Below, in pieces: positions 1 to 53,577 of a DNA stretch of 64,000 bases. Source of the stretch: a virus; IMG/VR virus record IMGVR_UViG_3300035670_000127, positions 1 to 64,000 of that record; one strand, 5' to 3'. The notes under the pieces were generated by a model, which was not told the DNA's origin, did not search any database, and saw nothing but the letters and a program-made list of their open reading frames with translations. Numbering within the stretch: the stretch's first letter is position 1; each line of letters opens with the position of its first letter. Position numbers and translations under genes: made by a program.

Positions 1-1387
1 ACCCGTCCCCTATTTGAACCCCACTTAGGTCGGGTGTCCCAGAAAAGGTAAAATCTACTGAGCTCCCTGACACGAAAGTAATAGCCGTGCAAGTGAGGTT
101 CATTAGGTAGCTATCTATAATACTCTCCATTTGTTCCCCGTCAACTGCATTAAGGCATGATGTCTTCACGGCGTTATCAGATACCGTTATCGTTCTAAAT
201 TCATTGTCTAGCCAGCCGACACGAGTCCTATCCGAAGCGTTGGCATTGGTCACACTGCCAGCGAGCCGGTCGGCTTCCTGTACCGTGTAATTTTTTTCAT
301 ACCCCAAGCGATAACGCCAGTAAGGAGGCGGGAGGGCTTTGATTTGGAGAGTATCCCGCACCCGCTTGTAATCGTAAATCACATCGGACGGGTTAGCAGG
401 GGAGGCTACTCTAACCACGGTAAATTTACCGTCAAAGTTGAAAAAATAGGCACAGCCTAGACCTTCAAAAATCTTATCCAAAACGTCTAGGATATTCTCC
501 CTTTGAGTCAGGTATAAACCAATGGGGTATGAGGGTAGGTTATTAAGTGAGGTTGCATTAATATCGTTGCTAGTTAAGCCTCCCCACACGGTTAAGATGT
601 GATTAACCAGTAAGCTAGGGGTGTTTAGAAACACGCCGCTATATTTCATACCTTGCACATCCATTGTAATCGTGCCAACGGGGCTGTTTACTAATGTAAT
701 CGTGCCGTTCACCAAATCCGTTGTGTATCCACTCGTTGGGGTTAAGGTGACGCCGTTATCATACACGTCGGCCACGGATTGCACTGCCCCGTCATTAAAC
801 TTGTAGGTCAAGGCATTTTCCACTGTTAGGATAGGTTCAATATTTCTAAGGTAGCCGAAGGCTAACGGGGTCGGCTCATTCTTTTTGGGCCCGGACGTCA
901 ATACATTGGAATTGAGAGCTTTGTCTAACAATCCGATTTTATCACGAATCGTTATGGAAAAAGTATAGAAATCTGAAAACTCCACATTTTCAATCGTGCC
1001 TATCAAAAACGGCTGTAAATTGAAGTCGGTATATGGCCATGAGGGGTCGCCTATCAAAATCTTAATTTCACGGCCTGCGAAGCTATAATTTATCCAATCA
1101 TCTAATGAACCGTCGGTGTTGTCAATATTTAAAGTACCGTAGGAGCTGTCGCCACGGGGTGAATCTAAGAAACCAATCTCTCTAGTAAACTCTAAACCCG
1201 CGTTTAATAGCTTAGGTAGGAATATCGCGTTAGCCGGGTTATCCGTCGGCTCAGTCGCATAATTTCTGTTAGAGATATAGAAGGTATTCTCTACTGAATT
1301 AGCTAAGGAATAGCCTTTTAAAATAAGCAATACGCAACGGTTTTTATCGTAAGAGGATAACCATGTCTGGTATTGGAGTAAGGTCAT
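1..1387 (-). CDS. Phage tail-tip/hub-like protein, partial (C-terminus beyond window edge)
   Basis: My translation of the minus strand is open from an ATG at 1387 to the window edge, giving at least 462 residues with no stop. It begins MTLLQYQTWLSSYDKN. The N-terminal part has a stretch of the kind 'DSPRGDSSYGTLNIDN', then a Gly-Arg-rich beta segment, as in N-terminal domains of tail-tip or baseplate hub proteins of siphoviruses. It lies downstream of the tape measure gene in the same orientation, the usual place for distal tail proteins. An AAGG about 9 bases before the ATG can serve as ribosome binding site. I do not recognise the exact family, so the tail-tip assignment rests mainly on position and beta-rich character. 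Confidence 0.6.
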   Translation of the reverse strand, partial: MTLLQYQTWLSSYDKNRCVLLILKGYSLANSVENTFYISNRNYATEPTDNPANAIFLPKLLNAGLEFTREIGFLDSPRGDSSYGTLNIDNTDGSLDDWINYSFAGREIKILIGDPSWPYTDFNLQPFLIGTIENVEFSDFYTFSITIRDKIGLLDKALNSNVLTSGPKKNEPTPLAFGYLRNIEPILTVENALTYKFNDGAVQSVADVYDNGVTLTPTSGYTTDLVNGTITLVNSPVGTITMDVQGMKYSGVFLNTPSLLVNHILTVWGGLTSNDINATSLNNLPSYPIGLYLTQRENILDVLDKIFEGLGCAYFFNFDGKFTVVRVASPANPSDVIYDYKRVRDTLQIKALPPPYWRYRLGYEKNYTVQEADRLAGSVTNANASDRTRVGWLDNEFRTITVSDNAVKTSCLNAVDGEQMESIIDSYLMNLTCTAITFVSGSSVDFTFSGTPDLSGVQIGDG

Positions 1388-1527: not shown

Positions 1528-4500
1528 TCACTTACGGATAAGAGTAGGTTGCTGTCCTTTTTTGAGGGCGGCGACGACGGGGGCGGCTACCGTATTGCCC
1601 ATATTATTAACGGCATTTGCAATCATTGAGTCACGGCGTTCTCCACTTTGGTTGCCCATCTTTAACTCAGTCAGTAAAGCGGTCAAAAGCTCTTCAATAC
1701 GCTTGCTATTGCCAGTTTGCCCACTCTCGTTCGCCTGCGCCCGTATCCCATATTTTCTAAGATAACCGGCCGCTTCTGGGTCAATAATAATTTCTCCTTT
1801 GTGGACATTTGCGGGCATGTCTTTCGCCACATAAGGAGTGCCAACATCAAAGCTAGGCACGTCACTACTCGACCCTTCTTTACCCTTTTGTTCGTCCTCC
1901 GTCTCGGTAGCCGGTAAAGCGGCCTGTGTGACAGAAATTGAGATTCCATTGATAGCCTCTACCAATTCGTTATGGAATGCCAAATCTCTCTCGGTGGTGA
2001 AATTCCATTCGTATTGGTGTAAATCACTTAAAGATTTTTGATATTTCCCAGCCTCATAATGCCACATTAACGCGGTGGTTAAATCCTCATTTCTCCACAT
2101 TAACCTGACGGCATCTTGCATAGCCACTGCGGCCAAATCCTCCCCACGCCATGCTAATTCTTCAGCTCGCCATGTCGCCCAGCGTTGCCCTTCGGTCTCA
2201 ATTACAAAATCCCTGCTTTTTACATCTTCGTCTCGCCACTTGAGAGTCTGTTCCGTCGCCTCTTTTCTCAATTTTTCATTGGATTTAAGGTCGTCATCAC
2301 GTTGCACTTTAGTCAGGTCTTTCCATTGGATAAAGAGGTTATCTAATTTGATTATAATGTCCTTTGCCCCGCTAGATGACACACTGCCACCGATGCTGAC
2401 AGGACTACTGCCAATCCCCGCTTTAACGGCGGTGTTAGCAACATTTGAAATGCCAGTCGCCGTGCTAGTCAAAGCCGCCGGAGTTGCCTGCGACTGGGGT
2501 AGCTGTGCAAGATAATCTTGAATGCTAGTTGCCTTCATAGTCCCCACATTGGCACTGGTAAAGCCTGCTATATCCACTTTAGGGATGGTCGAGAGAGTGG
2601 ATTTAGTAGTGGCTAATTTACCATTCAGTCCATCCAAATCGGCCTTTAAGTCAGTCACCCCCATGAGGCTCTTTTTGAGTCCTTCTAGGGTCTCTTTAGC
2701 TTTTAGGAAGCTATCGTAGGTGTCTATCTTGACGTCGATCCCTTTGGCGTCAATCATTAACTGAGTCGACCTCTTATCCATAGCGGTGTATAATTCAGAC
2801 TCAGTACGTCCCTTATTAACAGTGGCCGACCCCATTTGCGATAACCCAGTCGAGAGTCCAGTAATGGCTAAATTCAACTCGCGGTACTTAGCAAGGTCTA
2901 TAGCTTTTGCATCATCTTGTTTAGCCTGGAACGCGGCGAGAAACTCCTTATTCGTTTGCAGATAGTTGGCTTTAAAGTTAGGCCAAAAACTATCCCAGTC
3001 AGTGTCTTTTCTATCCACTAGGAGTCTCTCCATAGCAGTGCCCAGCCCACCCATATCATCTCCCTTGAATCCGTAATCCGACTGTAGCATCTTTTTGATG
3101 CCTTCATTGTCTATACTACCACTGTAATCATAATCCCCATTAGTACCTCTTTTTTGAGTAGAGTATTTCGCCAGCTTATCAAAAATTTCATCAAAGGAGG
3201 CGTTGATATTATTCTTAGTGGCAAACCCACGAAAATCTGCAAACGCGGCAACGGCATTATCAATCGCCGTCTGATTATTAGCAAACCCCTTCTCCTTGGT
3301 GGCAATCTCTGCCTTAACCTTCTCCCCTTTAACCGCACCGATAAGCTCCCGCAACGGCCCCGTGATATTCCGTTGCATAGCCTCGTCAAGGCGTTGCGCG
3401 ACCTCCAATTGCTTTTCAGGGGATAACTGGGTCATCAATGCCGATATATTGCTATTAAGACTATCCTTAATCCCCATATCCATAGCCACTAAATAGTTCC
3501 CTAATTGAATCAATTGCCCCAGGGACGCTTGTTGCACGGCACTGATTTCAACTGCAAAAGCCGTGTCATCAAAGGTCTTAGCCGCTTCGGCCTCAAAGGC
3601 GACCTTCATAGCAACCAAGGAGGTATCTAATTTTTGTAACTCGTCCCTAGCGGCCTCTCGCAGGCCATTAATCTGCTTATCCGAATTTTCCCTGTCAGCC
3701 TGTATCTGCTTATCGGCATCCGTCTTAGTTTGTTCAATTAACTTATCCGTGTCAGTTTTTTGAGACTCAATGAGCTTAGTAAAATGCTCTTTTTGAGATT
3801 CCTGCATGGCAGTAAATTGTTCGTCTGGGATAGGAGTCGCGGCGGGGTTGGCTAGTTGACCAGTTAAGTCCCTATCCATAACTCCTAAGATAGAGTCCAC
3901 CGCTTGCAATTTATCATAAGCCGCTTGTTGCAAGGGTAGGAGGTTAGCCACGGCCTTACCTGTTTCTGTTTCGTCAATAGGCACGACCTTGGCAATCTCA
4001 GCCGCTTGCTTTTCAGCTTCGCTTCGCATCCCCTCTACATTTTCATTCACGTCATCAAAAATTTTGGCGTAGTCATCTGAACTGGCATAATAAGATTGTG
4101 CCTCTTTCAAGTAAGCCTGCGCTTTACCGGACACCTCACCCATAGCCGTCTCATCACCGCCCTTGGCTAAACGCATAGTTTCTTCATACTGGCGTCTCGC
4201 TTCCTCTAATCGTTTCGCAGGGTTAAAGGTGGACAGCTCTCCTAACTTCAAGTCATCTAAAAAGCCCTTGAGTTGCTTGGAAAAATCAATTAGCTTTTTG
4301 TAGTGGTCACGTTGCGTTTGCTGAGTCTTTTGTACCTCCTCAAAACGTTTATTCTCCGCCTCTATTTGTTCATTGAGTGACTCCAAAACGAGAGACTTAT
4401 ACTCCTCCAACTTCTTAACGCTCGCCTCGGTGACGGGCATGTTTTGAGAGATACTATCTTGAATAGCGGCTAACTTTTCAGCGGTGGAGGTGCCCGCTAA

Positions 4501-7500
4501 AGACATGTCCTTAGCTAACTTCTCAATATCGGTTGCGAGTGAGTCTTTGAAAGATGCGACGGCATCTTGAATCTTTTCAATTTCTTCACGTAGTTTTTTC
4601 GCGGCATCTTGTTGCTTCTCCGCGGTCTTTTGCTTCTCCTCACTTTCTTTTTCCAAAGCCTTGATAGCCTCGTCGCGGGTCTTTTCAATTGATTCTACTT
4701 GCTTATCGCGTGCCTCCTCTATTTTCTTTTGGGTTGCCTCATGGGCTTTGTTAATCCCATCAATCTCTTGTTCAAGCGCGGCCAGAATCGCCTTACGATA
4801 TTCCTCTCCTAATTTAACCGCCTGCTTCCCGTCTTCTATAGACAGGCGACTGGCCTCCTGTGCCGCTTTAATAGATTGCACTGCGGCCTCTCCTGACACA
4901 GCCAAAGCCGCACTGTTTTTCTGAAGGTCGGCCACCGTCAATCCTGCGTCCCTAATCGCCTCTGCGTCTAACTCGACGGGCTTACTTAATTGCAAGGGTT
5001 GGGTAATGGATTGGGTACTTTGCAAACTGACAGCGCTGGCTTGTGCAAACTCGCCTCTCGCTTTATCTCGCAATGCCACCTTAGAGGAGGTCTGATTAAG
5101 GTCGGTATTTATCTTGTCTATATCGTCCCCAATGGCGGACAACGTGCCTCCAAGGCTATCCACTAGCTTATTAAACTCACCTATGATTTCCTCATGGGCT
5201 TTTTGAGTCGCTTCCTTTTCTTTATTGATAGCCTCGATTTTGTACTTAGACTCATCCATAACCAGTTTGCGATATTTACCCAAATCCTCCACCGCTTTTT
5301 CAATAGCCTTTGGACTCTCCTTAGTCACCTCCTTAGCTAGGTCAAAGGATTGCAAGTCATTTAAACTCGCTTGCAAGGTCTTCATTTGGGCGGCGCGGCG
5401 ATTGGCTTGCAACGATTCAGATTGGGTATCAAAGGACTGAATATCAGACACGAGGTTATCAGACAGACTGGTCATCTTATCTGCCAACTTATTGAACACG
5501 TCAAAAAACTTATCAATCTGTTTCATCACCTCGGCCTCGGCGGCCTCGGCTTTCTTTTTAGCCTCTTCTGCGGCCTTCTCAGCCTCCTGTTTAGCTTTTT
5601 CCGCGGCCTCCTCTGCCAATTTAGCAGTTTCTTCTTCGTTGGATTTGACAGCACTGATATATCCTTTCGTGCTATTGATAAACTCATCCACCGTCACCCC
5701 AGCGGATTTAGCCATCGATTCCAGTCGACCTGTATCCATATTAGCAAGGGCATTGGCCATCGATTTAGAATCGCGGCCTAAAGAGGTGATAGCACCCGTA
5801 AGTGAGGGGTAGTCCTTTGCGGTTTTCTGAATAGTATAATCGGCGTCCTTTAATGAACTCCCCATTCTATCCATTTCGTCTTTGAAACCGTTTAAGGAAT
5901 CCGTGATGGCCTTAGCTTCGTCGCCCATTTGCTTCAGTGCGCCCACATAGCTATTCACGTCCCCTATGAACTCGTCTGTACTCACTCCCAAACCCTTAGC
6001 CATTTCAACTACCTTGTCAGGTGCCATTGAGGCAAACTGCCCGGCCACCTCCTCTGCGGTTTTGCCACTCAAGCCTAAAGACGAAATTAATCCGGGATAC
6101 TTGCTAGTCACCTCACTGATAGCAAACTGAGAGTCAGTCATACCACTGGTCATCTTTTTAAATTCGTTTTGCATCCCTTTGACGCTATTGATGGCACTCT
6201 TAGTTTCTTCCTCTTGAGAGGCAAGGGTATTGATATAGGTCGTGGCATTTTCCAAAAACTGGTCGGTGGTCATTTTACTGGCCGCGGCCATATCTGCCAG
6301 TTGCTTATCATCTAATTTAGCCAACTGAGTCGCCGCGTCTTTAGAGTTGCCACCGAGGGCTTGCATATTGGTGATTAATCCAGGGAACTGAGTCGTGAGC
6401 TTACTCATAACCAGCTCGTTTGCTGACATCACCCCTCCCAGTTTAGACATTTCGTCTCTAAAAGAGGTCATTTTCTCCGCTTGCGCCTTCGTCTCCTCTG
6501 CCTGTGCATTCAACACCCCGATATAGCTATCCACATCGGCCATTAAGGTTTCGACACTCACATTCAAAGACTTGGCCATGTCAGCAATTTGCTGTTCATT
6601 CATAGAATCGAATTGCTTACCCACCTCCTGGGCCGTCACCCCGACCTTAGATAACGAATCGGCTAAACTAGGGTACTTACTCTTGAGTTTATCCATAGTG
6701 GCTTCATTATCCGTCATACCTGTTGCCAACTGGTGCATTCTATCTTTAAACGACCCTATCTGCCCTTGCAATTCCTTAACAGCCCCTAAGTAAGCCAATG
6801 TCGCCTCCTTAGCTTCGTCGGCGGCGATACCGTTGCCGGTTGCCCATTGCGCCACCTCCTCATCGGTCATACTCTTAATTGCGGTGGCCGCTTCAGTGAC
6901 ATTCACGCCCATGGCATTCGTTGCAAGGTTAAGGGCAGGGTACTTATTAGCTAAGTCAGTAATTGTCTTTTCGGCCCCAGTGAGAGGGTTAATTAAATCA
7001 TCTAATCCTGTGCGTAGGCTTGCGAAAATATCAGTGGTAGGCAACGTGCTAACAAAAGACTGAATATCGGCCTTTAAGACATCCGTGGTGACTCCTAAAG
7101 AAGCGGCCAGTGCGTCTAAGTCGGCGTCACTCATATTGGCAAACTGGGTTGCCGCTTGCTGTGCTGTTTGACCAGAATTGAGAATTTGCTGTGACAGGGA
7201 GGGGTACTTATCGGCCAGTCCATTGAGAGTCACCTCATTATCAGTCATTCCCTGACCCAGTTTTAGCATAGCAGAATGAAACGAGTTGAAAGACTCCTCA
7301 TTGGCGGCCATGGTATTAACCCACGTCGTGCTATCCGTGCGCAATTCGTCAGTGGTCTTATTCAGTGATTTAGCCAGTGACTCAAATTCAGTGTCGCTTA
7401 AACTACTAAAGTAGGTCGCGGCATCTTTAGCTGACATAGAGGAGCTGTTAATGGTGCTCGCTAGGGTTGGGTAAGAGGCTGTTAGGTTTTTCAAAGCAAT

Positions 7501-10500
7501 ATCGTTATCCCCATACGTCCCCGTCGCCTTTAACATCGTTTCGGTATAACTAACCATTGCCTCCCGATTGGATTTGACCGCTTCATCATTGGCGGCCATG
7601 GCACCGACCCACGCTTGAGAGTCAGCTAAAAATTCGGCGCGTTTTTCGCCATAGATACCCAGTTGATCCATCAATGCCTCCATATCCATAGTTGCGAACT
7701 GAGTAGCGGCCTCCTTAGCCGTCATAGAGGAATCATTGATAGCAGACGATAGCATGGGATATTTAGCCGTGAGTCCTTCCATTGTCACTTGAGAGTCGTT
7801 GGCAACCCCTGCGGTTTTACGCATTTCATTTTGGAAGTCAGCAATCGATTTAGTGCTCTCCTTTAACGCCTCGTCCTGACTCTTAACCACTCCTAGCCAT
7901 GTAGAGGCGTCGGCCTTGAGAGTGTCAAAGTCAGTCCCCAAAGAAGCGGCGAGAGCCTTCAATTCGTCATCTGATAAACTATTAAACCGTTCCGCGGCCT
8001 CCTTAGCAGTGAGAGAGGAATCGTTAATGATACCTGACAGGGCTGGGTACTTGTCACTCAGGTTTTTGAGTGACACTTCATTTTCAGTCATTGACCCACT
8101 CATAATCGCCAGGCTATCTCTAAATTCCCTCATACTGGCCGCTTGTGCCTTAGCTTCTTCCGCTTGTGTTTTAGTCGCCTCCTCTATTGATTGGGTGGAA
8201 CTCACAAGCGTTTCAGCATCGGCCTTAAACTGGTCAGTGGTGACTCCAAAACGCACGGCGGCGCTGGCAATGTCGGCATCCGACATAGTTGAAAAATAGG
8301 TTGCTAATTCTTTAGATGACTTACCTTGAACCTCACTAAAGCCGCTATAAGTGCCGGCTAGTTTTTCTATACTAACCTGTGCATCCGTCGTCCCACTAGC
8401 AATCTGTGACATCTTGGTCCTAAATTCAATAAACCCTTGTGCTAAATTCTTAGTATCCTCCTCTATCGTTTTGGTGCTATTCACCCACGATTCAGTATCG
8501 GCCTCGAATTTTTCCACTGACACGCCATACTGGTTAGCCAATTGTTCAATTTGAGTGTTATCCATTGCACTGAAAAATTTAGCCATTCCTTTTGCATCCA
8601 TCCCTTGAGTCAAGTCGGTCAAATAGGGGCTCTTTTGAGACAGGTTTTTGACGTTTAGACTGGCGTCGGATTCACCTGTAGCCATTTGACCCATCTTGTC
8701 ACGCCATGAATCCATCCCTTGCTGTAACTCATTCACCGCCCCAAAGTAAGCCGTGGTCTTTTCTTTTAGCTGGTCGGTAGTGAGACCGTATTGTTCTGCA
8801 AATGCAACAAGCTGGTCGTCAGGCATGGCTAACATAGCTTTAGCCGCTTCCTTAGTATCCAAAGTCATAGCTTTAGCCGCAAGTCCTAAGCCGGCAAATT
8901 CTGAATCCAATTGGTTAATCGTTTGTTGCTTCCCTACCTTCTCCGGCGCGGCAAACTCTTGTAGAGAGTCACGGAAAGATTTCATAGCCTCTTCTTGCGC
9001 CTTCAAAGCCCCGACGTATGCTTCACCGTCTGCTAATAACTGTTCGACAGTCACACCTAAAGAAGCGGCGAGGCTCTCTAGTTGACCATCATTCATAGTT
9101 GATAACTGGGTAGCTAATTCCTTAGAGGTGACACTTTGGTCTGCAAACAATGCAGTGAGGGACGGATAAGACTCTTTCATTCTATCCAAAGTCAGTTGAT
9201 ATTCGGTGGTCGTCCCAGCCGTCACAGCCATCTTATTTCTAAACTCACCCATGGCTTTTTCGGATTGTTTCATCATATCCACTAATCCTAAAAAGTCACC
9301 CGTCACCTTAGAAACCTCCTGCCCCGTCGCAGTGGCTATGGCTTGCAATTCTTCAATACTCATATTTTGGAATGAAGCCATTAATTCCTTAGAGGAGTCA
9401 GCATTTAGATACTGCGCGGCACTGGTCTGCCCATAGACTTGATTCAACTCATACATGACCTTAGCATTGCCCTCTAATCCAAGGCTCATCATCTTAACGC
9501 CCGACCTAAAGTCATCTAAGTTTTTAGCCGCGGCCTTCGCTGCTTCTTGTGCCTCTTTCTTAGCAGCCGCTTCTTGTTCTCTCGCTTCTTCTTTAGCCCG
9601 TTTTTCCTCTTCTTTCGCTTGCTTCTCGGCCTCCCTTGCTTCCTCTTTCGCTTGCTTTTCAGCTTCTTTCGCACTGGCCTTATCTGATTCCTCTGCTTCC
9701 TTCGCGGCTTCAGAAGCGGTCTTTTCATTACGTGCTTGGAATATATACGGTGCGGCTGGTGATTGGTTAATGGTGTTGTATGCAGTCTCCCCAACGGTTG
9801 AGAATGTCTGTCCTATTTGGTCAAGTGCTCCGCTACTTTTCAGTTCACTCATTACCTGACCCATAACCTGTATCTTTTGCTTTGCATCTGCCACAATAGC
9901 GGCCAGGGCATCGGCGGCGAGTAAGCCACCTGTAGAAACAGCCGCCCCCGCCACCGTCCCGCCTGTTGCAACGTTAGTGGCCGACATCGTCCCGCTTTCA
10001 ATTAGGTTAGTGGCCGCGACGGTACTGCCAGTTGTCAGGTTACTTGTTGAAACGAGACTAGCGTCGGCTAAATTCGTTCCTGCGAGAGCGCCGGCGTCGG
10101 CTAGGTTAGTGCCAGCCATGGCGCCTCCTTCCGTGATATTCATAGCGGCTTGTGCTGAAGAGGATAGAAACGGCTCCACCACCCCTTGATAAATCGTTTG
10201 CATCACGCCGTTTAGCACCGTGCTAATCATTTGGTTATAGAATTGACTGGTGAAGTTGTCAGCAAACATTTTCCCAGCTTCCGCCGCCGACCCGACGTTG
10301 GCATCTGTGAGTACCTTCATTAAATCACCACCCAATGACTCCCCATTGATATTACTAAACATGTTGCTTTGTTCTTGTAGAATACCAATGTAGGTCTGGG
10401 TGTCGGCCATTAACGTCTCGACTGTTACCCCTAGCGCGTCGGCCATCCCCTGTAACTCCTCTGGACTCATTTGGTCAAAGAAGCCGGCCACTTGAGTGGC

Positions 10501-13500
10501 AGTCATTCCCGCGTTTTCAAGAGATTCAGATAGCTGTGGGTACTTGTCTTTTAGCTTAGTCAGTGCCGCTTCATTATCCGTTGCACCTGTTGCTAACTTG
10601 TGCATTTCGTCCTTAAACGAACCAATATTGGTTTGCAATTCAGAGGAGGCGTTTAAGTAATCCGTGGTCTTTTGGGTGATGTCTTCTATCGAAAGACCCG
10701 TCAACCCCATACTTTCTGCCCATGCCATCAGCTCCCCTTCAGACATGGTTGCCAATTGCCGTGCCGCTTCTTTAGTATTGAGTGTCAAAGCGGACGTACC
10801 TAGATTCAGATTAGGGAACTCCTTAGCTAAATCACGAATGGTCTTTTCTGCCCCGCCAGTGGAATCATAGATGCCTCTCATTGAGTCTCTAAATTTATCC
10901 ACTTGTTCAGAATTGGCATACAATTCGTCAAGGGCAGGGGCGAGTTTTAGAATAGAGTCATGTAGATTACGTTGCGACTCATTGGTCAAATCGAACCCTT
11001 GAACCAAATCAAACAGTCCCTTACGGGTCTTAGGTACCTCTAACCCCAAGCTCTTAAACGAGTTGCCAATCGACTGATTGAGGTCGGTGGCCTTCTTAGC
11101 TTGCTGTTTAAGGGAGGTGCCGGACGTGCCTCCAAATTTTTGATTGAAGTCCTCTATGGCTTTGTAGTAATTAGCAAACTGTGGGGCGCCTTTAAGGAGG
11201 GCACTGAAAGTCGCTTCACCATCTTTACCCAATTCAGAAACAGATTGAGTGAGTTTAAAAAACTCCTCACGGGTCTGTGGGAAGGCGGTATTGATGCCAG
11301 GCAACGTTTGTGACTGAATCTCTTTTAAGGAGGTGTTTAACCCAGTGAGACTGTTACTGAATTCGAGGTTAGTGCCTGACACTGAAGCGAAGTTATCCTT
11401 AAAGAAGCCAAGGGAAGCACTGAATTTATCCATGTCTCCAAAACCCTTAACAAGGTCTTCAGAAAAGACCCCCATGTTAAGACCAGTCTGTTTAAAGACT
11501 TCCTTCGTCTCCATCATTTTACCAATGAATGCCGTAAGCTCCTGTTCCGTTCCCTCGAAGCTACTTACCATAGATTTAAGTGTTTTGTAGAAACCCGCTT
11601 CGCCTTTATCTTTGATGATAGTTTCTCCGGTGACTTCCTCCCCGCTGGCAAGTTTAACGGCATCTTGAATACGGGTTGCGAACACCTCTGCTAACTCGCC
11701 ACTGATAGACTCAGGTAGGGCGATTCCAGTCAGGTCGGTGAAAATTTTACCTATCTCGCCCGTCAAGGTACCTTGCAATTCGTCAATAGGCATCCCCTTC
11801 ATTTGTTCGGCGGAGGCATTTACAAATTCAGTGAGACGTTCCCCTAATTTAGCAGACACGTCATCTTGCAACCCGCCCTTGACCGCGGTGTCGGCACTGG
11901 CAACGAATTTGGTTAAAACTCCGTCCCACGTCTCAGCCCGTGCGGCTTCACTAAAGGTACCATCTAAAACTTGTTTAAAGGTATTCTTAAACCCGCCTCC
12001 TAAATTCGTCTCGATGTCCTCGCCTGCAACCATGATATTATCGACGGCTGACTTGACCATCATCACACGCATCTTTTCAAAAGCCTTATCAAACCATTCG
12101 GGGCCTTTATTTTCCATAGCGGCGATGTGATAGCGGAAGTTATCCATTTTTCCTAAGAGACCGTTTTTATCCATTCCTAATGACTCACTCACGGCCTCAA
12201 TAGATTTTTTCGTTTCCCCTAGCATGTCACTAAGTTTTTTGACGCTGGCATCATCTAGGGATTCATGTCCCATTTTAGAACCGCCTAGCCATCCCTTCTT
12301 GGTTTCTTTAAAGCCTTTGCCAAAAGAGGCTGACATGCCCTTCATAGAAACCTCTACCCATTCGGCCTCACGTACCCATTTAGCACCGATACCGGATAAG
12401 GACACTAACTTGCCTGCTATCATTCCTCCAATCGGACCGAGTGGAGTCATAGACCCTAACAACTGGGCTGCCCCAGCGGCGGCGCCGGCCATGTCACCTG
12501 AGAGTAAAGAAGTGGCGGCTGACAGAGCCGACATACCTGGCGTCGAACCGCCTCCTAATAAAGAACTGATTCCTTTTCCAACCTCTCCAAATGAACCCGT
12601 GAGACTACCTAACTGACCGGACAAGCCACTGATAAATTTGCCAGCCTCCTCGGTGCCACCCATGAGTCCGCCTAAACTCTTAGTTAATGTGCCCGCTAGG
12701 TCGCCTTTGCCTCCTAATAAAGAGCCTATAGAAGACATGAGTCCACCACCTTCTTTACCCCCACCTCCAAATAAACTACCGATGCCTTTGGTGATAGATG
12801 ACATAAAACCGCCACCCTCACCTCCGCCACTGAATAAACTGCCAATGCCTTTGGTGATGGTACTCATGAAACCACCGCCTTCTTTACCGCCTCCAAATAA
12901 ACTGCCAATCCCACTGGTTATGGAAGATAGGAAACCTTCGCTTTTGCCACCAGCCCCTCCAAAGAGGTTACCAATACTACTCGCCATGTTTCCAAAAAAG
13001 CCCTTAACGCCATCCGTGATGCCCTTAAACATATCCATAATGCCACCGCTTTTTCCTTCGCAGGCGTCCTTTGCTACGTCCGTTGCTTCTTTTAGGTCGG
13101 CGGCCTTTTCAATAACGGGGTTGTTAGTGGCTTCGGCTAAACATTGTCCGGCGGCTTGTGACAACCCCTCCTTCGCTTGGTCTGCTATGTCGGCCACCTG
13201 TTTAGTGGCATCGCCCGTGGTTTGTACAATAGCCTCCCCTGCGGTTTGGGTACTGCCTGCGTGGGTTGTCATAGCCACGGTATCTTGAGTGATACTGGCA
13301 ACCCGCGACGCCTCGACTGCGGCCATAGCTTGGTCAAAGGAAGCGGCTGTAGAAACTTTAGTTGCACCCAAGGTAGCCTCCACCGCGGCCAGTTCCTGCT
13401 GGGCGGTGGCTTGGGCTTTGGATGCGTCGGCGGAAGCATTGGCGGCGGCTAAAACAGTTTGCGCATGTTTTTCAGAGGATTGCTTTTGAAGGTCGGTGGC

Positions 13501-16500
13501 GGCGACCTGCGTTTGCGCTTGTGTTTGCGCGGCTTTTGAGACGCCACCCAGTGCCTCTTGAACGTCCTTAGCGGCGAGTTTAAACGGGTCGGTGGCAAAC
13601 ATGGTTGCCTTCTTATTCTGTGCTAACCACTTATCTAATTCAGTCCATGCGACTCCACCGACTTGCTTGCCACCTTGTCTAATACTATGGGATTCAGAAA
13701 TACCCATTTTGCCCGTCACTTTATCCACCGTGACTTGCACGATGTGATCAATATTTTTGTCTATGTCACTCCCAGCGCGTACTCGACCTCTATCCCAGCC
13801 GTGGTCTCCTTTATCTAGGCCAATCATCATTCCTTCCCTTAATTGACCTTTGAAGTCGCCCGTTTTACGGCTGTCAATGAGGGTGCCTGTTTTATCTACT
13901 ATATTTTGAATGATGTTATGACTGGAATCTTGCAATAGCTTCATGTCGGCTTTATCAAACACCACCTCCCCCGCTTGTTGATTGATATTCTCAAAAGCGG
14001 TTTTGGTTAGTAGACTAACCCAGCCACTGCAATCAATTTTACCCAATTCGATATTCTTAGCACCCAGTTGATAGGACACGCCTTTCTGAATGTACTTGTT
14101 AGTGGTTTCTGATAACACGTCGAGGGTGCTATCATGTATTGCAACCCCTCCGCCGGTGGGTTGAGTGTGCGAAGGACTGCCTTTGATTGCTTTGGTGACA
14201 ACCTTAGTTGATTCCTCGGCCGCTTTGGCAGTAACAGTGACAACTCCTTTGCTAACCTCGCCTTGAAAGTCATCTTTAAATTGCGAAGGGAGGGGTAACT
14301 TATTCCATTTACCTATCCAACCCTGTATATATTTTTCAGCTAAGGCGACCCCACTGAGTCCTTTACCTTCACCTCCGACTAGATTTTTTTTGACGTTTCG
14401 TGTCACTTCACTACTAAGGTGATTAACGCCCGTGGTCAATGTTTTAAGTATCTGACTTAATCCGCCAGCCCCTTGATTATGCGCCATCCACGCCTTCAAT
14501 CCTTCATTGATATTCATTTTTTCAGCAGTCTCGCGCCAACCCTTGCTGAATTTATCCAATGTCTTCTGGTTAATCTCCCAATACTTAATAGCACCTTCCG
14601 CGGCGGCCCTTGGGTCATATTCTTTTCCAGAAATACCCACCTCTTTCGATGCCGCCCCCTTGAATTGGAATAATCCCATGTATCCAGAGGAGTTCTTTAC
14701 ATTCGCATTAAAGGAGGACTCCAATGACGCCATTCGACTTAATTCAAGAAGGCTGTAATTGAATTTTTTAGCCGCTCCCTCTAATGCAGATGCTACCTCA
14801 TCAGTGACCTTGACGTATTTTTGATTGGCAGATATAATCTCTTTATTGGTGGATACCACCTCTTTACTAGAGGTTGTTATTGCAGAGGGTGTTACGCCGG
14901 CAACGGATTGACTACCCACCACGCTACCTCCACCGCGACCTGCCCGACCAACTAAGACATCTGAAGCGGCCTCTTTTAAATTGGCGGCGGATTGTTCAAG
15001 GCTCTCCGCTTTACTGGCTAGAGTCGCCGCTTTTTGAATTGCCTCATTGACGTCAGCACCCAATTTATCAACTGTTTTGCCAATCCTCTCGCCGGCTTCA
15101 TTGACGGCTTTGGCGATGGTGCCAGCCGCGCTATTCGAAGCCTTCCCCACTTGTTCACCTGACTTCGCCAGGAACTGGGTAGCCTTATCCATATCGCGCT
15201 GGACAGATGAATTGGCATTCTCTTTCCCTAACCCAAATAAGCCTAAGAATTTTTCTTTTGCCTTATTTTGTAAAGCCTCTTGCTGTGATTTTAGAACGTC
15301 CTTAAAGAAACTTTTAAGGGCACTTTTAGCTGACATTTGGCCGCTTGAAAACGAATCAAAGTAGCCTCCCGCTTTTTCACGTAGGACTTCCAATGATTTC
15401 TTTTGGTCTTCTAACGCTTGCTTTTGTACGTTAGCAGATTGACGGCTTTGGATGATGCGTTGCCCCTCTTCCACCCCCACTTTACGCATAATTTCAAGAT
15501 ACTCAGTTTGCTTATCAGATAAAGTGGATTCTGATAGTTGCTTTTGCATCTCACTCAGTGCCTTCTTGCGTTCGGCCAATTCCTGAGTTTGGGATATTTC
15601 TAAAGCGATTTGTTCTGGGTATTTTTGCTGTAGGTCAAAGAGACGCGCTTGTGACTCTGTCATCGTTGCTTTAGCCAATTCATTTTTAGCCGCGGTCAAT
15701 TCTTGATTGGCATTTGCTAACAGCTTAACCTGTGCGATTTGTGGACCGTATTCAACACCTTGGTCTTTGACGGTCTGGAAGGTATCTCTCTGTTGGTCGG
15801 TGAATCCCGATATGGCCAATTCATCACGAGCATTGGACACCGTTTCATAAGACCCTTTCAGTTGCTTTGCATAATCCTCCGCTACCTTCGTCACCTCTTT
15901 ATATTTATCTGCCAACTTTAATAAATCTGATGCTTGGTCTCTTAAACTGTCTTTAATTTCACGGGCAGAATCTTTTGCGGCTTCGATGTTAGCTTTTTCC
16001 ATTTGCCTTGCGGCGGCCCCGGATTCCTTTAAAGCCTCATTCTTTTGTTTATAGACCTCCCCTAATTCACGAACCGCTTGCTTCGCTTCGTGCGCGACTT
16101 TACGGGCTTCCACTAACTCGGTGCTCTTAATCTGTTTCTTCTCCCTACGGCTACTGGTTTCTGCAATCTTTTGTTGAATCTCAAATACCTTATCCGAAGC
16201 CGCTTGCGCCTGCGCTTTAGCCGCTTCGAGGGCTTGTTTAGCACCATCGACGTCGGCTTGCAAGGCACTGACTGACGCACTCGAAGCCTCAGTTAAACCA
16301 GTTAATGCCGTCCCTGTTTGAGTGGCCATGTCTTGCACTGAACCTACTAAAGCACCGCTGTTTTGAGAGACGCCTTCGGCAAGGGTTGCAGGAATTGATT
16401 GACCTGACTTAGTGAGGTCTGATAACGGCCCCTCCTTAGCGTCTGAAAAGGGGAGATATTGACGAACCGCGGTTAACGAATCAGAAACGGTTTGGGTTAA

Positions 16501-19500
16501 TTGGGTAGCACCTTCTTTAATCCCAGTGCCTATAGTGGCAATCAATTTACGCCCTGACTCTGCAAAATCAATTGAGGTGATGTAATTCAATACCCCATCA
16601 AAAACCTCACGCGCCGACTCAATTAGGAGGCTTGCACCTCCTGCGATAGAGGTTTTTAGTTTATTAATTATTTGCGTCCCTTGGCCTATCCAATCGATTC
16701 CTGACAGGTAATTGGTCACGGCAGTAAAGAGACCTGTCACGGCATCTACTATTAAGGTTGGAACGCTTAGGATTCCATTTACGAACGCCTTGACCAAACC
16801 ACTGCCACTAGCAACCAATTGAGAGAACGGACCCTCTTTGGCATCGCTATTGGGGAATAGATTCCAAATGTAACTAAACACACCCGCAACCGCGTCATAA
16901 ACCGCTTTACCTGCGGATTTAATTCCACCCCAAAACGCTGTGAGGAGACCCACACCAGACTGATACCATGATTCAGGTAAAATGGCACTGATAGCCATTT
17001 TAACTAACCCTAAAACCGCGGAGGTTAGATTAGATGCGACTGACCAAATACCTTTAACCAATCCTGTTATCAGTGCCAATGCCGCGTCCCCAAAATTGCC
17101 ACTGCTAATTGCCGCGGTAACGTCCCCAATCATGGTGCCTACGATTCGAGTGAGGTCACTAAATAAGTTAGCAGGCGCCATGAGAACATCACCCAACCCA
17201 CGCCACATTTCATTAAGGGAGCCGGTGACTTGTGAAATCCCCGCTGGTAAATTTTGGAAAGAGGTCAGGAGGCCGTTAGCAAAGTCAGCAAATCTAAAAT
17301 TGGCAACCGCTGTCACTGCTATTTGAATAGCTTCACTGACGGCACGACCAAATTCTATAAACACACCTACCACTGCAATAGCTGAATCCTGGACTACTGT
17401 GAATTGACTATAAAGAAACGAACCTATCTGCCAACCGACGAAAAATGCCGCTAGGCCACCTGCGGCTGTGGATACAGCTGTGAATGCACCTCCTAGTGAG
17501 ACGAGACCCATAGAGATTGCAGTGAATGCACCCATTCCTACAACCTCCAAATTTTCCATAGCTAAAGCAAATCCATCTGTTAGAGGTTGCAGTAAGCCAA
17601 AAGAGGCTAACATCTCCTCAAAATCTCGTTTAAACTTCTCCTTGATTTTGCTTAAATCAAATGCCGACTCTAGGTTAGCTTGGGTTTGTTGCGTTTGTGC
17701 GCTATTGTCAGGTAACATCCCCATTTCTGAAGCGGAGGCATCCTGACTTGAAAACATAGTGAGACCCACAGTGCCAGCCACCGCGGCTGTCATTATTGCG
17801 GACTTCTTGCCTAACATCCCACTTAATCTTGAACCCGTGGTCGCGGCGGCAACTTCCCCTTGAGTGGTGAACCGTGCCCAGAAATTGGCAGTGTATGCAG
17901 AGGCGGCAGTGAACGCACGTCCTATGAAACCACTGACTGGGGCAATAGCAGGGGCGGCTAAACCTCTAAACCGTGCCCAGAAATTGACAGTCGATGCCGA
18001 TGCAACCGTTAGACTTCGGTTAAGTAACCCAGTCGTCGTCGCTATTGCCGCAGTCCCCATGGTTTTGAAACTCGCCCAAGTGTTTATCATTAGGCCGCTT
18101 CCGGCAACCCACATTCTATTCAATAATCCCACACCACCTGACGTAGCCGTCTTTAATTTGGTTACGAATGAGGAGAATAGGATTGTAGAATGGGCACTTC
18201 CTGCAATCCACATTCTTTGAATAAAACCAGTTGCTGAAGTGGTTGCTAACGCCGCTTGTTGACGGAATCGTGTCCATAGACTTTGGATATTAGGTGACAA
18301 TCTTTGATAAGAGGCGGATAGATAGGTCGAGGTGGTTGTTATCGTTGCCAACGCTTTGGTTTTAAACCCCTGCCATAGAATCGAACCACCTACAGTTCCC
18401 ACTACAAACATGCGTTGCAAAACCATTCCCGTGCTACGTGCGGCAACAGTGGCAGACTGGGTAAAGGACGCCCACAAAACAGGAATGCGGGTCATAGACG
18501 CATTCCAAAGGTTTAGCATAAACGGCTTAAACCCGGCGATTGCGGCTGTCCCCATGGCTTTGAATTTTAGCCATGCGGTATTCCATAAATTGACAAACGT
18601 TGCACCCATAACAGTCATACTGCGTTGCAACATCTGTCCAACCCCTGCTAACGCCGCTTTTGCGCTGAGTTTAAAACTCTCCCAAAAACGAATTGGATAG
18701 GCACTCGCCACGACCCACATTCGTTGCATATAACCTTGCATTGCAACCACGGCACTGCTATTTTTGAATGCAGTCCAAACACGATTCATCTGTGTGGTCG
18801 CGAAGGTGCTAATTGCGGTCCATGCCCGTCGCCAAATTGAAACAGTTTCATCTGCCGAACGGCGGCCACCGCTTCTTTGTGGAGGCGGTGGCGGTGGTAC
18901 CGGAGCTTGTTGCTGACTCTGTTGACCCATTGGCAACCCCTGCATCCCACCTCCTTTATTTTTGGTCATTGCTTTTTTAATAGAGGAGGTAATCGCAGAG
19001 GAGATTCCGTAACTTAATGCACCAGCAAAAACGGCCGCTAACGCCACAGCCGCTGGTTTTCCTAAGTCCTCTACTTTCTGAAGTGCCCATTCCAAACCAC
19101 TGGTGATACCACCTCCTATGGATTGGCCAAAATCACCAAATAGAGATACCAAACCACGGGTGATTAAATCACCAAGCGCACGGCCAATTTCACTGATGCC
19201 GTTTTGTTTTATGGTCTCAATAAACGCCTTAACCTCGTCCTTATAATTAGCTAATGCACCCAGTGCCGTTGGAATAAAACTTAATACCAGGGTCAAGGGA
19301 TTCGTGGCCTTTAACAACAATGGAACTAACGTCATAAAAACAGGGACGAAAGCCGCTATACCTGCTATACTTGCAATAGCAATTTTTGACATGCTATCAA
19401 GGTCTTTCCACCATTTTATAATTCCGCTGATAGCATCTCCTATTTCAGTTTTAAAAGCCCAAACCGCCTGGATTCCATTGTACAAAAGACCCCATGAGAA

Positions 19501-22500
19501 TTTACCGCCCGCAATCAATGCTATGTTAATCAATTCGTTCCCTAGCGATTTGATTAACTTCAATTGGTCTTTTGAGAAAATAGGGTCTTGTTCCATCACC
19601 AATTCTTGACTGGCTTTAGCAATCCCTTTCACCCCATTCTCTGCACCTACGGCATCTTCTTTTATTAACCCAAAGGACTGCCCTAACGCAATGAAGGCAC
19701 TGGCATTTATCGCCGTCGCTTTGATGACAGTGTCGGCTGTCATCTGCATAGAAATTCCTAAGCTCTCTATCTTTTTAGTGGTGAAGCTAATCGCAACCGG
19801 AATAGACTCCTTGAAGTAATTTATCACCACACTGAGCTTATCATGCACCATGAATGCAATCTGAGAGAAAATACCACCGATTACATCACTTACTTTATTA
19901 AAAGCGAAGCCGATTTTTTGGGCAATAGACATCCCTTGGGTCGCCTCTTGAAACCCAATGAATATTGACTTTACCTTGGTTTGCAATGCATTGATTCGTT
20001 CTAGGAAGGGGGCTATGATTGCGGCGTTAAACGATTTAGAAATAGTCGCCCAGTATAACGCTGTTACCTCCGCTGTCTCGTCCCAAAAATTACGCACTGC
20101 ATAAGAAATTTTTGGCCATATACTTGCGAACTTAGATAAAACCGGGATGACCCGTGCTAAGTATATTTCAGTGATAATTGCACCCACCGTAGTGAGGGAT
20201 GCGAGTATTGACTGAGCTGATAAAATAACGAGATTACGAATGGATAAGAATGCCGTTGCAATCGCAACACGGGTTAGTTGAATAGCCGTTGCTAATCTTT
20301 GACTGTGAATCACCATGTTTGCTATCGCAATGATATACCCTTCCGCAAAAACTGACAGTGTGACACCGGATAAACCAATTAGGAGACCTGAGATAACTAC
20401 CTTTTGAGTGGTATCAAGTTGATTGAAAAAGTTTATGGCCGTGTCACTCCAAATCTTAATTTCATTTAGGGAACGGTTTAGATTTTCTGTTACTGACACC
20501 TCTGCAAAAGTAGGGTGCCAATACTCACTCACTGATGCAAATAAGTCACGTACTACATTATTAAATTCTCTCCCCTGACTCCTTATCCCGGCAAGCATTG
20601 TTTCAATTAATGCCTCTCCACTTTCGTATAGAGTAGAAAACGGCCCCTCCTTTGCATTGGAATGGGGAAAGAGATTTGCCACATAATTGAATATACTTAA
20701 CACCGAGTCATAAATGTCTTTACCGGCTTGTGCAATCCCAGAGGCAAAAGTTGTCACCAGAGCGCGACCAGCGGAACTCATATCTATCATCATCAATGTG
20801 GATAGATTTTGTTCAATTTGGTCAAGAAAACTGAAATTCATTGCCAGGCTAAACTGCGCGGCAAGGTAGGCTACGCTTTGAATAAGAGAGTTTATTGAAC
20901 TTACAGCTAAAAAGATAACGGGCGTGAATAGCTTTATTCCTTCAACTAGCGGCACGATTCCAATGCTAACTACTTTTCCTAAAACAGTCCCCAATGCGTA
21001 GGCCGTTGCCCCAAATACCATGAGAGGCTCTGTCTCTCCAAATAATTTACTTAATTCATTTGACAGTGGGGCGAAGGCTTCACTTAAAATTTTTATTGAA
21101 GGTGCAAGGGCATCAAACAAACCTTCAAATGCGAGTTGAATGGGTTCAATACCGGCTAAGAATCCGTCTTTAAATGCAGTAATGACGGGGACGACTGACT
21201 GAATAACATCGACTATAGCTTGGATACTGGCAGTGCCTAATCGCACGATAGGGCGAAGAATAGGGACGACTATATCGAAAATGGATAATGCCATTTCCTC
21301 CATATTGCCAGTCAATTGATTCCAGTCTCCTTTGAGGTTGTCTAACATCTTTTTAGAGGCTCGGTCTGCAAACCCTGTGCTATCAGTCACGGTGGTTCTG
21401 AACTCCTTAAATTCTGTCGTCATAACCTTAACTGCTTTACCGCCTTGAATCACAGTTTTTTCAAATTCCTTTGACTTCTTAGCCAACTCCAACATAGCAG
21501 GCGTTGCTTCGACCCCAAATAGGGTTTTGAAGGTATCTAATTTGTCAGCATCCGTCATCTTTTCGGTGACTTTATTCAAATCTGCCATGATGTCGGCAAA
21601 ATCACGAATTTTACCTTTACTGTCAGAAACCTTTAACCCTAAGCCACCTATAGTCTCCGCGGCTTTATCGGTCGGCCCAGCTAACCTTAACATGGCCATT
21701 CGTAAAGCTGTGCCACCTGTGGTGTCGCCAATAGCAACGTTAGCTAACATACTGGTTGCCGCAGTGAGGGTTTGAATGGATTGGTTAGCCGCGGCAAAAA
21801 CGGGGGCACTGTATTTCATACTCTCCCCTAACTCACCCACACCCACATTACTTGCATTTGCCGCTTTAGCAAATAAGTCGGCAACCATAGTTGATTCTTT
21901 TGTTTCCAACCCAAATGCACGTAGCATTTTTGCCGCAATCTCACTTGACGTTGCCAAGTCCTCACCGGATGCCGAGGCTAAGTTCAATACGCCCGGCAAA
22001 GCTGACATGGTTTCATTAACTGTAAATCCTGCCCGTGCTAAATTAAGTCCGGCATCTCCCACCTGCGTCGCACTGAAAACAGATGCCTTGGCTAGGTCGC
22101 GCATCCCCCCCCCTAGCATACTCAATTGCTGGTCGGTTGCGTCTGATACAGCCGCTATAGTGGACATCCTAGATTCAAATTCAGAACCAATGACAACGAC
22201 CTTTTTAAAAGGTTCTGCCATTTGGCTAACTGAATCGATAATATTTTTTATGCTAAAGGCGAATTGGCCTATGGAATTAATAGAGTCCTTAAAACTCTCC
22301 TTAACCCCATTCGAAAAATCTTTGATTTTAGAATTTAAAGAAGTGAGAGGTTTTAAAGAATCAGTGGCAGAATCTTTAATGGCAGTAAAGCCACCTGCCA
22401 CCTCTTTCAATTGCTTATTGACATCGGCCATTTTCTCCTTAGTTCCCGTAAGCAACCCGGACTGTTTCTTAATTTCTTCAGATGACTGTCTATTGGCATT

Positions 22501-23599: not shown

Positions 23600-25007
23600 A
23601 TGAATCAAGAAACATTAGTATTTACCACCTCTCCTAAAAAAGAGGTTAAAGTTAATCGGCCGGCCGTGTATGAAGCGGGGCCGATAGGTGGAGTATTTCT
23701 ACTTAACCATGATAAGTCACCATTGATACCAGTCACCAATGACAGGGCGCGGTGGCTGTTAGATAACAAACAGGCCGCTGTTTATCGGCGCTATCCATTT
23801 ACTCTCATACTGAATAAGAGTCACCAATCCCTTGAACAAGCGTACCCAATCGAGTTCAAAGTTGACCCAGGTAGCAAAACAACTGGATTGGCTTTGGTTG
23901 CCTACATCGATGGAAAATATACCGTCATTTGGGCGGCGAATCTAAGGCATAGAGGTGATATTAAAAGTGGACTGGAATCCCGTCTGTCAATTCGACGTGG
24001 GAGACGCAACCGACATACTCGTTATCGCCCGGCGCGGTTTATGAATAGGGTAGGTTCTAAAAAGGAGGGTTGGTTAGCACTGTCATTGTTATCAAGGGTG
24101 CGTAACGTAGCCAACTGGTTAACGAAGCTAAGAAAGTACGTCCCCATCACTAGCGTCGCAGTGGAATCTGTGCGATTCGATATGCAAAAACTACGCAACC
24201 CAGAGATTAACGGGGTTGGCTATCAACAAGGCGAGTTAATGGGGTACGAGGTACGAGAGTATCTACTTGAAAAGTTTAATCGCAAGTGTGCTTATTGTGG
24301 AAAGGATGGCGTCAAAGAGAAGGGCGTCAAATTACAGATAGAACACGTCACCCCAAGGTCAAGAGGAGGCGCAGACTCAGTTTCCAACCTCGTCATTGCG
24401 TGTCAAAAATGCAATCAGAAAAAGGGGTCGCAGTCCATTGAGGAGTTTTTAGCAAGCCGCACCGACGACCTTAAAAAAAAATCAAGACCCAGTTAAAGAC
24501 ACCTTTGAAAGACGCGGCGGCGGTAAATGCAACCCGTTATAAAATTTTAGAGGTGTTGAAACAAAGCGGCCTACCAGTGACAGACTGGACTGGGGTGCGG
24601 ACGAAAATGAATCGCATTAAACAAGGCTACCCTAAAGACCATTGGATTGATGCCGTTTGTGTGGGTGAGACTGGGGAGGCTGTTAGCATCCCTGATTCTT
24701 TAAAACCATTGCAAATCAAGGCAATGGGGCGAGGCAATCGTTTAATGCAAAGCCATGATGCTTACGGGTTTCCTAATAAGAAACCTAATAACAAAGCCAA
24801 GCGAGTGCATGGGATACAGACGGGGATATAGTGGAAGTGGAAGGGGTAACCGGACGAGTATCTGCTATTTCAGTCAACTCGCACTCTGTCAGCATCCCAG
24901 TCGATGGTAAACGTAAATCCTTCTCTCTTAGAAAAAGAGAGGCTAAAATTATACAACGGACTGATGGGTATAAGTACGATAGAATTAAGCAAGTGCCCTT
25001 TTTGTAA
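23600..25007 (+). pseudogene. iscB: IscB RNA-guided nuclease (RRXRR/HNH), broken by two single-base frameshifts
   Basis: Three consecutive frames together give a full IscB of about 468 residues. The first frame (23600-24496) has the N-terminal PLMP-type domain (PVTNDRARWLL), RuvC-I (FKVDPGSKTTGLAL), the arginine-rich bridge helix (RRGRRNRHTR), RuvC-II (SVAVESVRF) and the HNH domain (CAYCG ... IEHVTPRSRGGADS ... CQKCN). The second (about 24485-24828) has RuvC-III (DHWIDAVCVGE) and the YGFP motif. The third (about 24825-25007) carries the expected C-terminus after TGD. Both junctions look like loss of one base in a homopolymer: an A9 run near 24472-24480 and GGGG at 24822-24825. All catalytic motifs are present. 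The frame breaks may be genuine decay, slippage at the A-run, or sequencing errors. IscB is the ancestor family of Cas9 and is usually carried by IS200/IS605-like elements; no TnpA is seen here. Confidence 0.9.
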
Positions 25008-32499: not shown

Positions 32500-33468
32500 T
32501 TATTTAATCCTACCCTTTAACCCCGTCAACTTCGGTATAATCCGAAGTCTAACCTCCCCCGTTTCCACATCCCAAATGCGCACGGTTCTATCCCATGAAC
32601 CCGATGCGACGGATTTACCGTCCGGACTGAATGCCACCGAGGTCACCCAGTCACTGTGGCCTGTCAGGGTGTGAATCAATTGCCCGTCCTGAACTTCCCA
32701 AATCCGTACCGTTTTATCGTAGGAAGCGGAGGCAACTAATTCTCCATTTGGACTGAATGCGACTGAGGTGACGATGTCGGTATGACCTTGCAATTCAATT
32801 TCTATATTCTCTTGCGAGAATAGACGAACCGTGTTATCTGTACAACCCATTGCCAGAATACCATAGCAATTGAATGCAAGGGAGGTGGCATACCCAGTCA
32901 CATTGTAATTAAGAATCCGATACTCTTTTTCGACATCCCATACGGAAACCACACCGTTCCTTGATGCCGACACGAGTCTATTGCCGCTGTTATTAAATGC
33001 CACCGCCGCCACACCGACGTCGTGTCCTTTTAACTCAGTTACCTCGTCCGTAATGAGATTCCATAATTTCAAATTATGAACTGCGTTATCGACCCCGATG
33101 GCAACCACCTTGTTATCCGGACTGAATGCGACGCTTGTGATTCCACAAGGATAGCCTTCTTCTTCCACTCGAATGGGAATGGGTGTTACGCAAAATTTGG
33201 TTAGGTACTTCCCGTCTCTGTCCCGAAGCATCACGGTATTATCTCTTGACCCGCTGGCAATAATACCTAGACCATTAATAGCAATTGCCTCAATTGTAGA
33301 GTGATGACCGTCCATTTGCTGAATTATGTCGCCACTATTTATGTCGAATACACGGATTAGGCCGTCATTGCAACCAGCGACTAATTGGGAGTAAGCATTG
33401 AAGGTAATCGAGTTAATTCTATGAGTTTCACTTTCATAGAATGGTAGTCTGCATATATTGTGTGTCAT
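32500..33468 (-). CDS. WD40-repeat beta-propeller protein (322 aa)
   Basis: Seven WD40 blades can be seen, ending in units such as 'VTSVAFSPDGKSVASGSWDRTVRIWDV'-like sequence with GH...WD spacing. The last three blades are close to consensus and the first four are divergent. There is no signal peptide, catalytic domain or membrane segment, so it should be a cytoplasmic scaffold. Standalone WD40 proteins are common in cyanobacteria and some large gammaproteobacteria but rare in phages. It was probably acquired from the host. The ATG lies 4 bp after the upstream small ORF's stop, with AGAGGAA as ribosome binding site, indicating an operon with the two small genes to its right. Confidence 0.92.
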   Translation of the reverse strand: MTHNICRLPFYESETHRINSITFNAYSQLVAGCNDGLIRVFDINSGDIIQQMDGHHSTIEAIAINGLGIIASGSRDNTVMLRDRDGKYLTKFCVTPIPIRVEEEGYPCGITSVAFSPDNKVVAIGVDNAVHNLKLWNLITDEVTELKGHDVGVAAVAFNNSGNRLVSASRNGVVSVWDVEKEYRILNYNVTGYATSLAFNCYGILAMGCTDNTVRLFSQENIEIELQGHTDIVTSVAFSPNGELVASASYDKTVRIWEVQDGQLIHTLTGHSDWVTSVAFSPDGKSVASGSWDRTVRIWDVETGEVRLRIIPKLTGLKGRIK

Positions 33469-40640: not shown

Positions 40641-40800
40641 TTGACACAAATTGCGTTAGTTTGTGTTCGGTTGACACAGGTTGACACAGTTTGACGCAAT
40701 CTGCTATTATTTTACACAAGTTGATACAGTTTAACACAATTTGTGTCAACCTGTGTTAATTTAGCACAAATTGACGCAATCTGTGTCAACTTGTGTAAAG
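40641..40800. repeat. parC-like iteron array: about 14 copies of TTGACACA-type decamers in 10-bp register
   Basis: From 40641 to 40800 the sequence divides into 10-bp blocks, nearly all variants of TTGACACARR or its complement. Examples are ttgacacaaa (40641), ttgacacagg (40671), ttgacacagt (40681), ttgacgcaat (40691), ttgatacagt (40721), ttaacacaat (40731), and inverted ttgtgtcaac (40741) and ctgtgtcaac (40781). Spacing of one per helical turn places all sites on one DNA face. It lies directly upstream of the parM-like gene, as parC does in R1-type ParMRC loci. A promoter-like pair TTGACG (40771)/TGTAAA (40794) with 17-bp spacing is embedded in it, which would allow autoregulation. Confidence 0.85.
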
Positions 40801-40854
40801 TATCGTATAAAAATTTTTACCTGTCAAGGTATATTAAAAAGAGGGTTTATAAAC

Positions 40855-49768: not shown

Positions 49769-50146
49769 TGTATAGACTGTATGCAGTCGGTTAATCGAAC
49801 CCCATACACGGAACCCTGCATATCTACAAGCCCCTATCCGTGCGGGTTTCCACCGTATAGGGTTCGATAATGGAGTGCATACGGTCCTATACAAATTCAC
49901 TTTTGTATTGGCCAACCCCATACTGGCAGTTTCATAAGAAACCTAGCAACGGCGCGGTGTTTAGTTAAATTAACCTCGCTGTCAGTGCGTATAGGGTTGT
50001 ATGCCGTAGTGGGTCTGTATAGACTGAAAACAGGATTTTACCGAATCCTAGAGTGCCCTGTTTATGCGGGTCTAGGGGATTCGATAATTGCGTTTAAAGA
50101 CCCTATTTTTACCAAACCCTATACAAGTCTATACAGTCTATACACT
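49769..50146. repeat. Second TGTATAG/CTATACA array, between portal and MuF genes
   Basis: The motif found at 30.2-30.4 kb recurs here: CTGTATAGACTGTATGCAGTC (49769-49789), CGTATAGGG (49855 and 49988), GTCCTATACA (49884-49893), CTGTATAGACTG (50015-50026), and a run CCCTATACAAGTCTATACAGTCTATACACTC at 50117-50146 shown here as its positions. Another dyad, GTTCGATAA/GATTCGATAA, occurs at 49862 and 50089. The region 49702-50137 contains no gene. Such a long non-coding array inside a late operon suggests a cis-acting replication or packaging site. Confidence 0.7.
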
Positions 50147-53217: not shown

Positions 53218-53577
53218 TTAATTTTTATCACCTGCCCGTTTCAAAGTGCGATTCCATACCGTGGTGAATCGTGGAACGTTCAATTGGCAGCCACGGTATT
53301 GCATAAGGAGTAGGGTGCGCGACTCAGTGGGCAGGGAGAGTAAAATTTGATAGATAGGATTATTGTGGTTACGTTGTAAAGTCGCCTCCTTTTTAGGGAT
53401 TCGTAGCTTGGTAGTGAGTAGGCAAATTTGCAAGGTACGGTCAATTCCAATAAGTGACACGAGAGGTCGAATCGCCTTTGGGAAGCAATCCGTGTCCACT
53501 CGTTCGAAAAAGACCTGTACCTTGTATTGCATACAGGCCGACATCATACCTTGTAATTCCTTACTTATGCTTTTCAT
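53218..53577 (-). CDS. Hypothetical protein (119 aa)
   Basis: The basic protein (MKSISKELQGMMSACMQYK) has no recognised domain. Its start overlaps the end of the tail-chaperone reading frame by 17 bp. It lies where some siphoviruses place small tail-assembly helpers, but here it is not next to the tape measure gene. Confidence 0.6.
   Translation of the reverse strand: MKSISKELQGMMSACMQYKVQVFFERVDTDCFPKAIRPLVSLIGIDRTLQICLLTTKLRIPKKEATLQRNHNNPIYQILLSLPTESRTLLLMQYRGCQLNVPRFTTVWNRTLKRAGDKN

Follow-up and report, generated by a model that had tools for sequence, protein, structure and literature searches.

A TP901-1-type tape measure gene of 7,052 codons in a metagenomic phage genome, its longer homologue in a sister phage, and the tail lengths they predict

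The DNA analysed here comes from an uncultured bacterial virus whose record has 81,363 bases; bases 1-64000 are referred to as the window. Its dominant feature is a minus-strand open reading frame (ORF) at 1528-22686, which starts with ATG and runs through 7,052 codons without an internal stop, giving a protein with a predicted mass of 753 kDa. Chance can be excluded as the source of a frame of this length, because no other ORF in the window exceeds 679 aa. Near its N-terminus the protein carries the conserved tape measure core (21169-22221): TIGR01760, the TP901 type tape measure family, matches aa 156-506 (E=1.8e-55; 188 bits, cut-off 28.8), PF10145 matches aa 196-391 (E=1.6e-42; 146 bits, cut-off 33.2), and many PHROG tape-measure families also match (best E=6.4e-79). 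The core occurs once in the protein, and its scores lie above the curated cut-offs, as expected of a TP901-1-type tape measure. The initial annotation, which had reported an unbroken ORF of 21.2 kb with a conserved tape measure core, was therefore correct on both points, though it gave no strand. The ends of the record share a 145-bp direct repeat with one mismatch, and the gene that is cut at the start of the window (2-1387) runs on across the circular junction; these two features make it probable that the genome is complete and forms a circle in the assembly.

Outside the core, the protein is built of several distinct regions. A hydrophobic region (aa ~460-2100; 16387-21309, minus strand) holds ten of the eleven membrane-like segments found in the whole protein, and contains short degenerate repeats at aa 1297-1627. 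Three modules with the motif FPxSDAKEGPxS are located at aa 619-723, 1890-1994 and 2032-2120. Elsewhere the protein has a glycine-rich stretch. Proline is low overall (0.7-4.6% per 300-residue bin); together with the hydrophobic segments this agrees with the largely helical structure presumed for TP901-1-type proteins, helicity being predicted here for a repeat alone. Further along lies a transglycosylase SLT domain (aa 2637-2745; 14452-14778, minus strand; E=6.6e-8), in which the Glu of the ES motif is present. It is followed by a region (aa 2855-3005; 13672-14124, minus strand) that is ~81% identical in the relative described below and gave no family match in family searches; from its motifs, DCSGW and then DHIVQV, it possibly represents a divergent NlpC/P60-like peptidase. 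Finally, a C-terminal segment (aa 6035-6230; 3997-4584, minus strand) is common to other phage tape measures. The 24 frames found through this segment range from 1,473 to 2,436 aa, one of them being truncated by a contig end, and weak matches of the C-terminus include Microcystis and Leptolyngbya phages.

A frame of this size in a metagenome contig with repeats could in principle be a chimera made by the assembler, or several genes run together, and the comparison with a relative bears directly on this matter. IMGVR_UViG_3300007177_000352 (83.4 kb, separately assembled) is a sister phage with mostly the same genes, its tail tube and capsid proteins being 86% and 81% identical, and it encodes an unbroken tape measure homologue of 7,676 aa at 56275-79305. 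From aa 3387 to the C-terminal end the two giant proteins are colinear with 61% identity. The 624-residue difference in length lies mainly in the N-terminal third, and all five alignment gaps of at least 30 residues fall within the first third; the FPHSDAKEGPFS modules number four in the relative versus three in the 7,052-aa protein. That the tape measure of the relative has grown still larger in its N-terminal third is new here. The relative also differs in strand arrangement, its head and tube module and its tape measure gene being encoded on different strands. Among five sister-phage contig fragments (6-27 kb) none matched the tape measure. When the two giant genes are compared, changed synonymous sites amount to 0.70-0.83 and changed non-synonymous sites to 0.14-0.52 in each full 500-aa bin, and to 0.66 and 0.51 in the last 52 aa; the weakest-constrained bins are those of the hydrophobic region and near the C-terminus. 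With synonymous change near saturation and non-synonymous change constrained, 1528-22686 is a real coding sequence over its whole length. The chimera explanation is hardly conceivable in view of the independent colinear homologue, the constraint in every full bin and the one-to-one pairing of all 16 internal repeats between the two phages; moreover, the best tandem array in the ORF is just 159 bp with a 73% match, which leaves little to mislead an assembler. A chimeric assembly, named beforehand in the initial annotation as one of two findings that would speak against its reading, is thus rejected on the strength of a homologue that was assembled separately and is longer still.

The repeats just mentioned occupy aa 3932-5683 (5638-10893, minus strand) and were delineated by sequence, tree and structure model as sixteen copies of a helical unit of ~83 aa. 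In the tree each copy pairs one-to-one with a partner in the protein of the relative, and because all 16 do so, the array, judging from these sequences, is older than the split of the two phages and has kept sixteen copies ever since. In the model of the repeat (mean pLDDT 70), short helices pack into a compact bundle and a single long helix makes the connection, so that some of the array may extend by less than 0.15 nm per residue. No fold match at E <= 0.001 was obtained in the PDB or a viral library, and the repeat region had no sequence match among 50,697 phage records. The ~83-aa helical repeat in sixteen copies, without sequence or fold match, is new here, and it was not found in other TP901-1-type tape measures.

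Genes for the rest of the tail lie at the other end of the window, all on the minus strand. The major capsid protein (58634-59752) and the portal protein (50138-51952) were assigned by matches in searches. Connector genes stand between the capsid gene and that of a 264-aa tail terminator (56095-56889; PF23840, E=3e-11), and these are followed by genes for a probable major tail tube protein of 498 aa (54581-56077), a probable tail assembly chaperone of 195 aa assigned by position (54001-54588) and a DUF1799 protein (53561-53836; PF08809). In other phages DUF1799 often adjoins the chaperone. The tube protein itself had no family match, and its structure model (pLDDT 31) is unusable, the assignment being made via remote homologues. 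Its two matches are with Synechococcus phage S-LBS1 (gene A17, E=2e-8) and Rhodobacter phage RcZahn (gene 25, E=1e-11); A17 in turn matches PF18906, the phage tail tube family (E=4.8e-21), and both homologues sit between tail-end genes and the tape measure gene in their own genomes. Just downstream of the tape measure gene, 2-1387 holds the first 462 aa of a protein (phrog_8917), which from its position is probably a tail-tip protein.

These genes also bear on the tail type. The head genes resemble mixed phage types, and the relatives of the capsid protein include phages named as myoviruses, which might suggest a contractile tail with a very long tube. However, no sheath family was matched among the tail-module genes searched, a 264-aa terminator precedes the tube gene with a presumed chaperone after it, and the annotated regions around the tube homologues of RcZahn and S-LBS1, which occupy the same position, name no sheath; a myovirus is accordingly very improbable. 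With a PF23840 terminator, a tube protein related to PF18906 and no sheath match, the phage, as judged from genes alone in the part of the genome searched, is a siphovirus. A TP901-1-type tape measure gene usually stands directly downstream of the tail chaperones, a feature that is not defining; here it starts at 22686, ~31 kb from the chaperone and DUF1799 genes (53561-54588) on the same strand (opposite strand in the relative), and this separation from the tube and chaperone genes counts against the explanation that fits best. That explanation, which we regard as very probable, is that 1528-22686 encodes a TP901-1-type tape measure protein of a siphovirus whose tail is proportional in length to it.

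Set beside known TP901-1-type tape measures, the protein shares the core in its N-terminal part, the hydrophobic stretches and an embedded peptidoglycan hydrolase domain, which several of them have, but it has 7,052 aa whereas the 24 frames sharing its C-terminal segment reach 2,436 aa at most. No tape measure of more than 5,002 residues was found in the searched literature, from which subscription journals are mostly missing; 7,052 aa exceeds this largest length found there by ~40%. The 5,002 residues are reported for the protein of the Thermus phage P23-45 (PMC10770324). The companion phage P74-26 annotates a tape measure gene of 15,021 bp, so the initial annotation was right to cite a shorter Thermus phage protein of about 5,000 residues; its description of the present gene as one of the largest holds when set beside published lengths, with the qualification that the relative, at 7,676 aa, exceeds it. 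These Thermus phages (Oshimavirus) resemble the phage studied here in having a giant tape measure, a micrometre-scale tail (nearly 1 µm in theirs, predicted here) and a similar genome size (83 kb in theirs). On the other hand, the polymerase motif DFDGD is absent from both the 7,052-aa and the 7,676-aa protein, and an RNA polymerase fused to the tape measure was rejected on that ground. When all ORFs of at least 90 aa were compared with P74-26 by tblastn, only ribonucleotide reductase matched and no shared structural genes appeared, so that kinship with P74-26 was rejected except for this one enzyme. Because the match is limited to that enzyme and DFDGD is absent, the giant length probably evolved separately from that of the Thermus phages, and this independence is new here. 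The Gordonia phages Hotorobo, Woes and Monty likewise have long siphovirus tails (540 nm) and long tape measure genes (9,984 bp), but their tape measures are less than half of 7,052 aa.

Tail length was estimated by scaling from published pairs of residue number and tail length. Rikishi, with a tape measure gene of 6,300 bp (2,099 aa) and a 364 nm tail, gives 0.173 nm per residue; Hotorobo, with 9,984 bp (3,327 aa) and 540 nm, gives 0.162; and P23-45, with 5,002 aa and a tail of more than 800 nm, gives at least 0.160. At these rates (0.160-0.173 nm per residue) 7,052 residues correspond to 1.13-1.22 µm, and at 0.15 nm per residue to ~1.06 µm. The initial annotation had used 0.15 nm per residue, which proves to be at the low end, and had taken 1.05 µm as an upper bound; because the published pairs give 0.16-0.17 nm per residue, 1.05 µm is instead a middle-to-low estimate. 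If ~370 enzymatic residues are omitted and each repeat is counted with its bundle in folded form and its one long helix, as modelled, the low estimate is ~0.87 µm. The predicted tail is thus about 1.1-1.2 µm, within a range of 0.87-1.23 µm, and that of the relative 1.15-1.33 µm. Tails of 0.5-0.85 µm would be expected if large parts of the tape measure, namely the SLT/peptidase region, the 16 repeats and perhaps the N-terminal third, were folded or cleaved. The compact helical bundles of the repeat model, the enzymatic region of ~370 aa and the RNA polymerase inside the P23-45 tape measure, which makes extra domains a known feature (PMC10770324), speak for such shortening, but the 5,002 aa of P23-45, polymerase included, still yield a tail of more than 800 nm, the repeats are conserved to the same degree as other parts of the protein, long helices join them in the model, and no cleavage site was noticed. 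The shorter tail is in our view improbable, and a length-proportional tail is retained as the basis of what follows.

In the proposed mechanism, several copies of the tape measure would run along the tail lumen, held by the chaperones up to the point where polymerising tube protein encloses them, and the terminator would cap the tube once the end of the tape measure is reached, so that extended protein length sets tail length. On infection the tape measure would be expelled, its transglycosylase part opening the peptidoglycan and its hydrophobic N-terminal third helping to form a membrane channel. The great length would have arisen by internal duplication, with the 16-copy helical array fixed in the common ancestor, and module gain in the N-terminal third would have added more. 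We lean slightly towards the view that the two sister phages bear the longest viral tails yet described (>1.1 µm), gained independently of the Thermus phages and partly from a tandem helical repeat serving as a modular ruler unit. The known size range of tape measures is extended by ~40-50%, a falsifiable number is put on a tail, and the findings suggest that micrometre tails occur outside the one hot-spring phage lineage as well. The sister pair of 7,052 and 7,676 aa, with equal repeat number and a size difference in the N-terminal third, is a natural experiment on whether each residue contributes to the ruler: if so, the two tails are predicted to differ by ~90-110 nm, and the difference would be smaller if the N-terminal third makes no contribution.

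Hints to the host disagree, because the phage carries a sigma-54 activator gene (46943-48301; PF00158, E=7.9e-62; 47% identical in the relative) alongside its weak C-terminal matches to cyanobacterial phages, and cyanobacteria are not known to have sigma-54. Sigma-54-like promoter sites in the phage are only slightly above chance. When genomes were scanned twice for a host, using alignments of the tape measure and of the tube protein, no relative turned up, and none came from the plasmid collection. Among the remaining genes, an HNH endonuclease gene (23600-24496) lies immediately upstream of the tape measure gene and is divergent from it, the ~0.9-kb gap between them holding short frames only. 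A WD40 repeat protein is encoded at 32500-33468 (E=1.7e-57); P74-26 annotates WD40-type genes too, with no sequence match to this one. A small vitamin B12-linked set occurs in this one phage: a cobalamin adenosyltransferase (62744-63277; PF01923), a large ribonucleotide reductase (63342 onward into L002:1-1348), which is the one enzyme with a P74-26 match, and a B12-binding radical SAM protein (L002:5916-7319). An actin-like (MreB-like) gene (40771-42009), which is conserved in the relative, has a tandem array of ~50-bp units immediately on its upstream side (40670-42009 region). Together with an FtsK/SpoIIIE-like gene (37952-39991) and a ParB-like gene (L002:5432-6049), these look like a plasmid-type partition system, and because of this the phage may persist as a plasmid.
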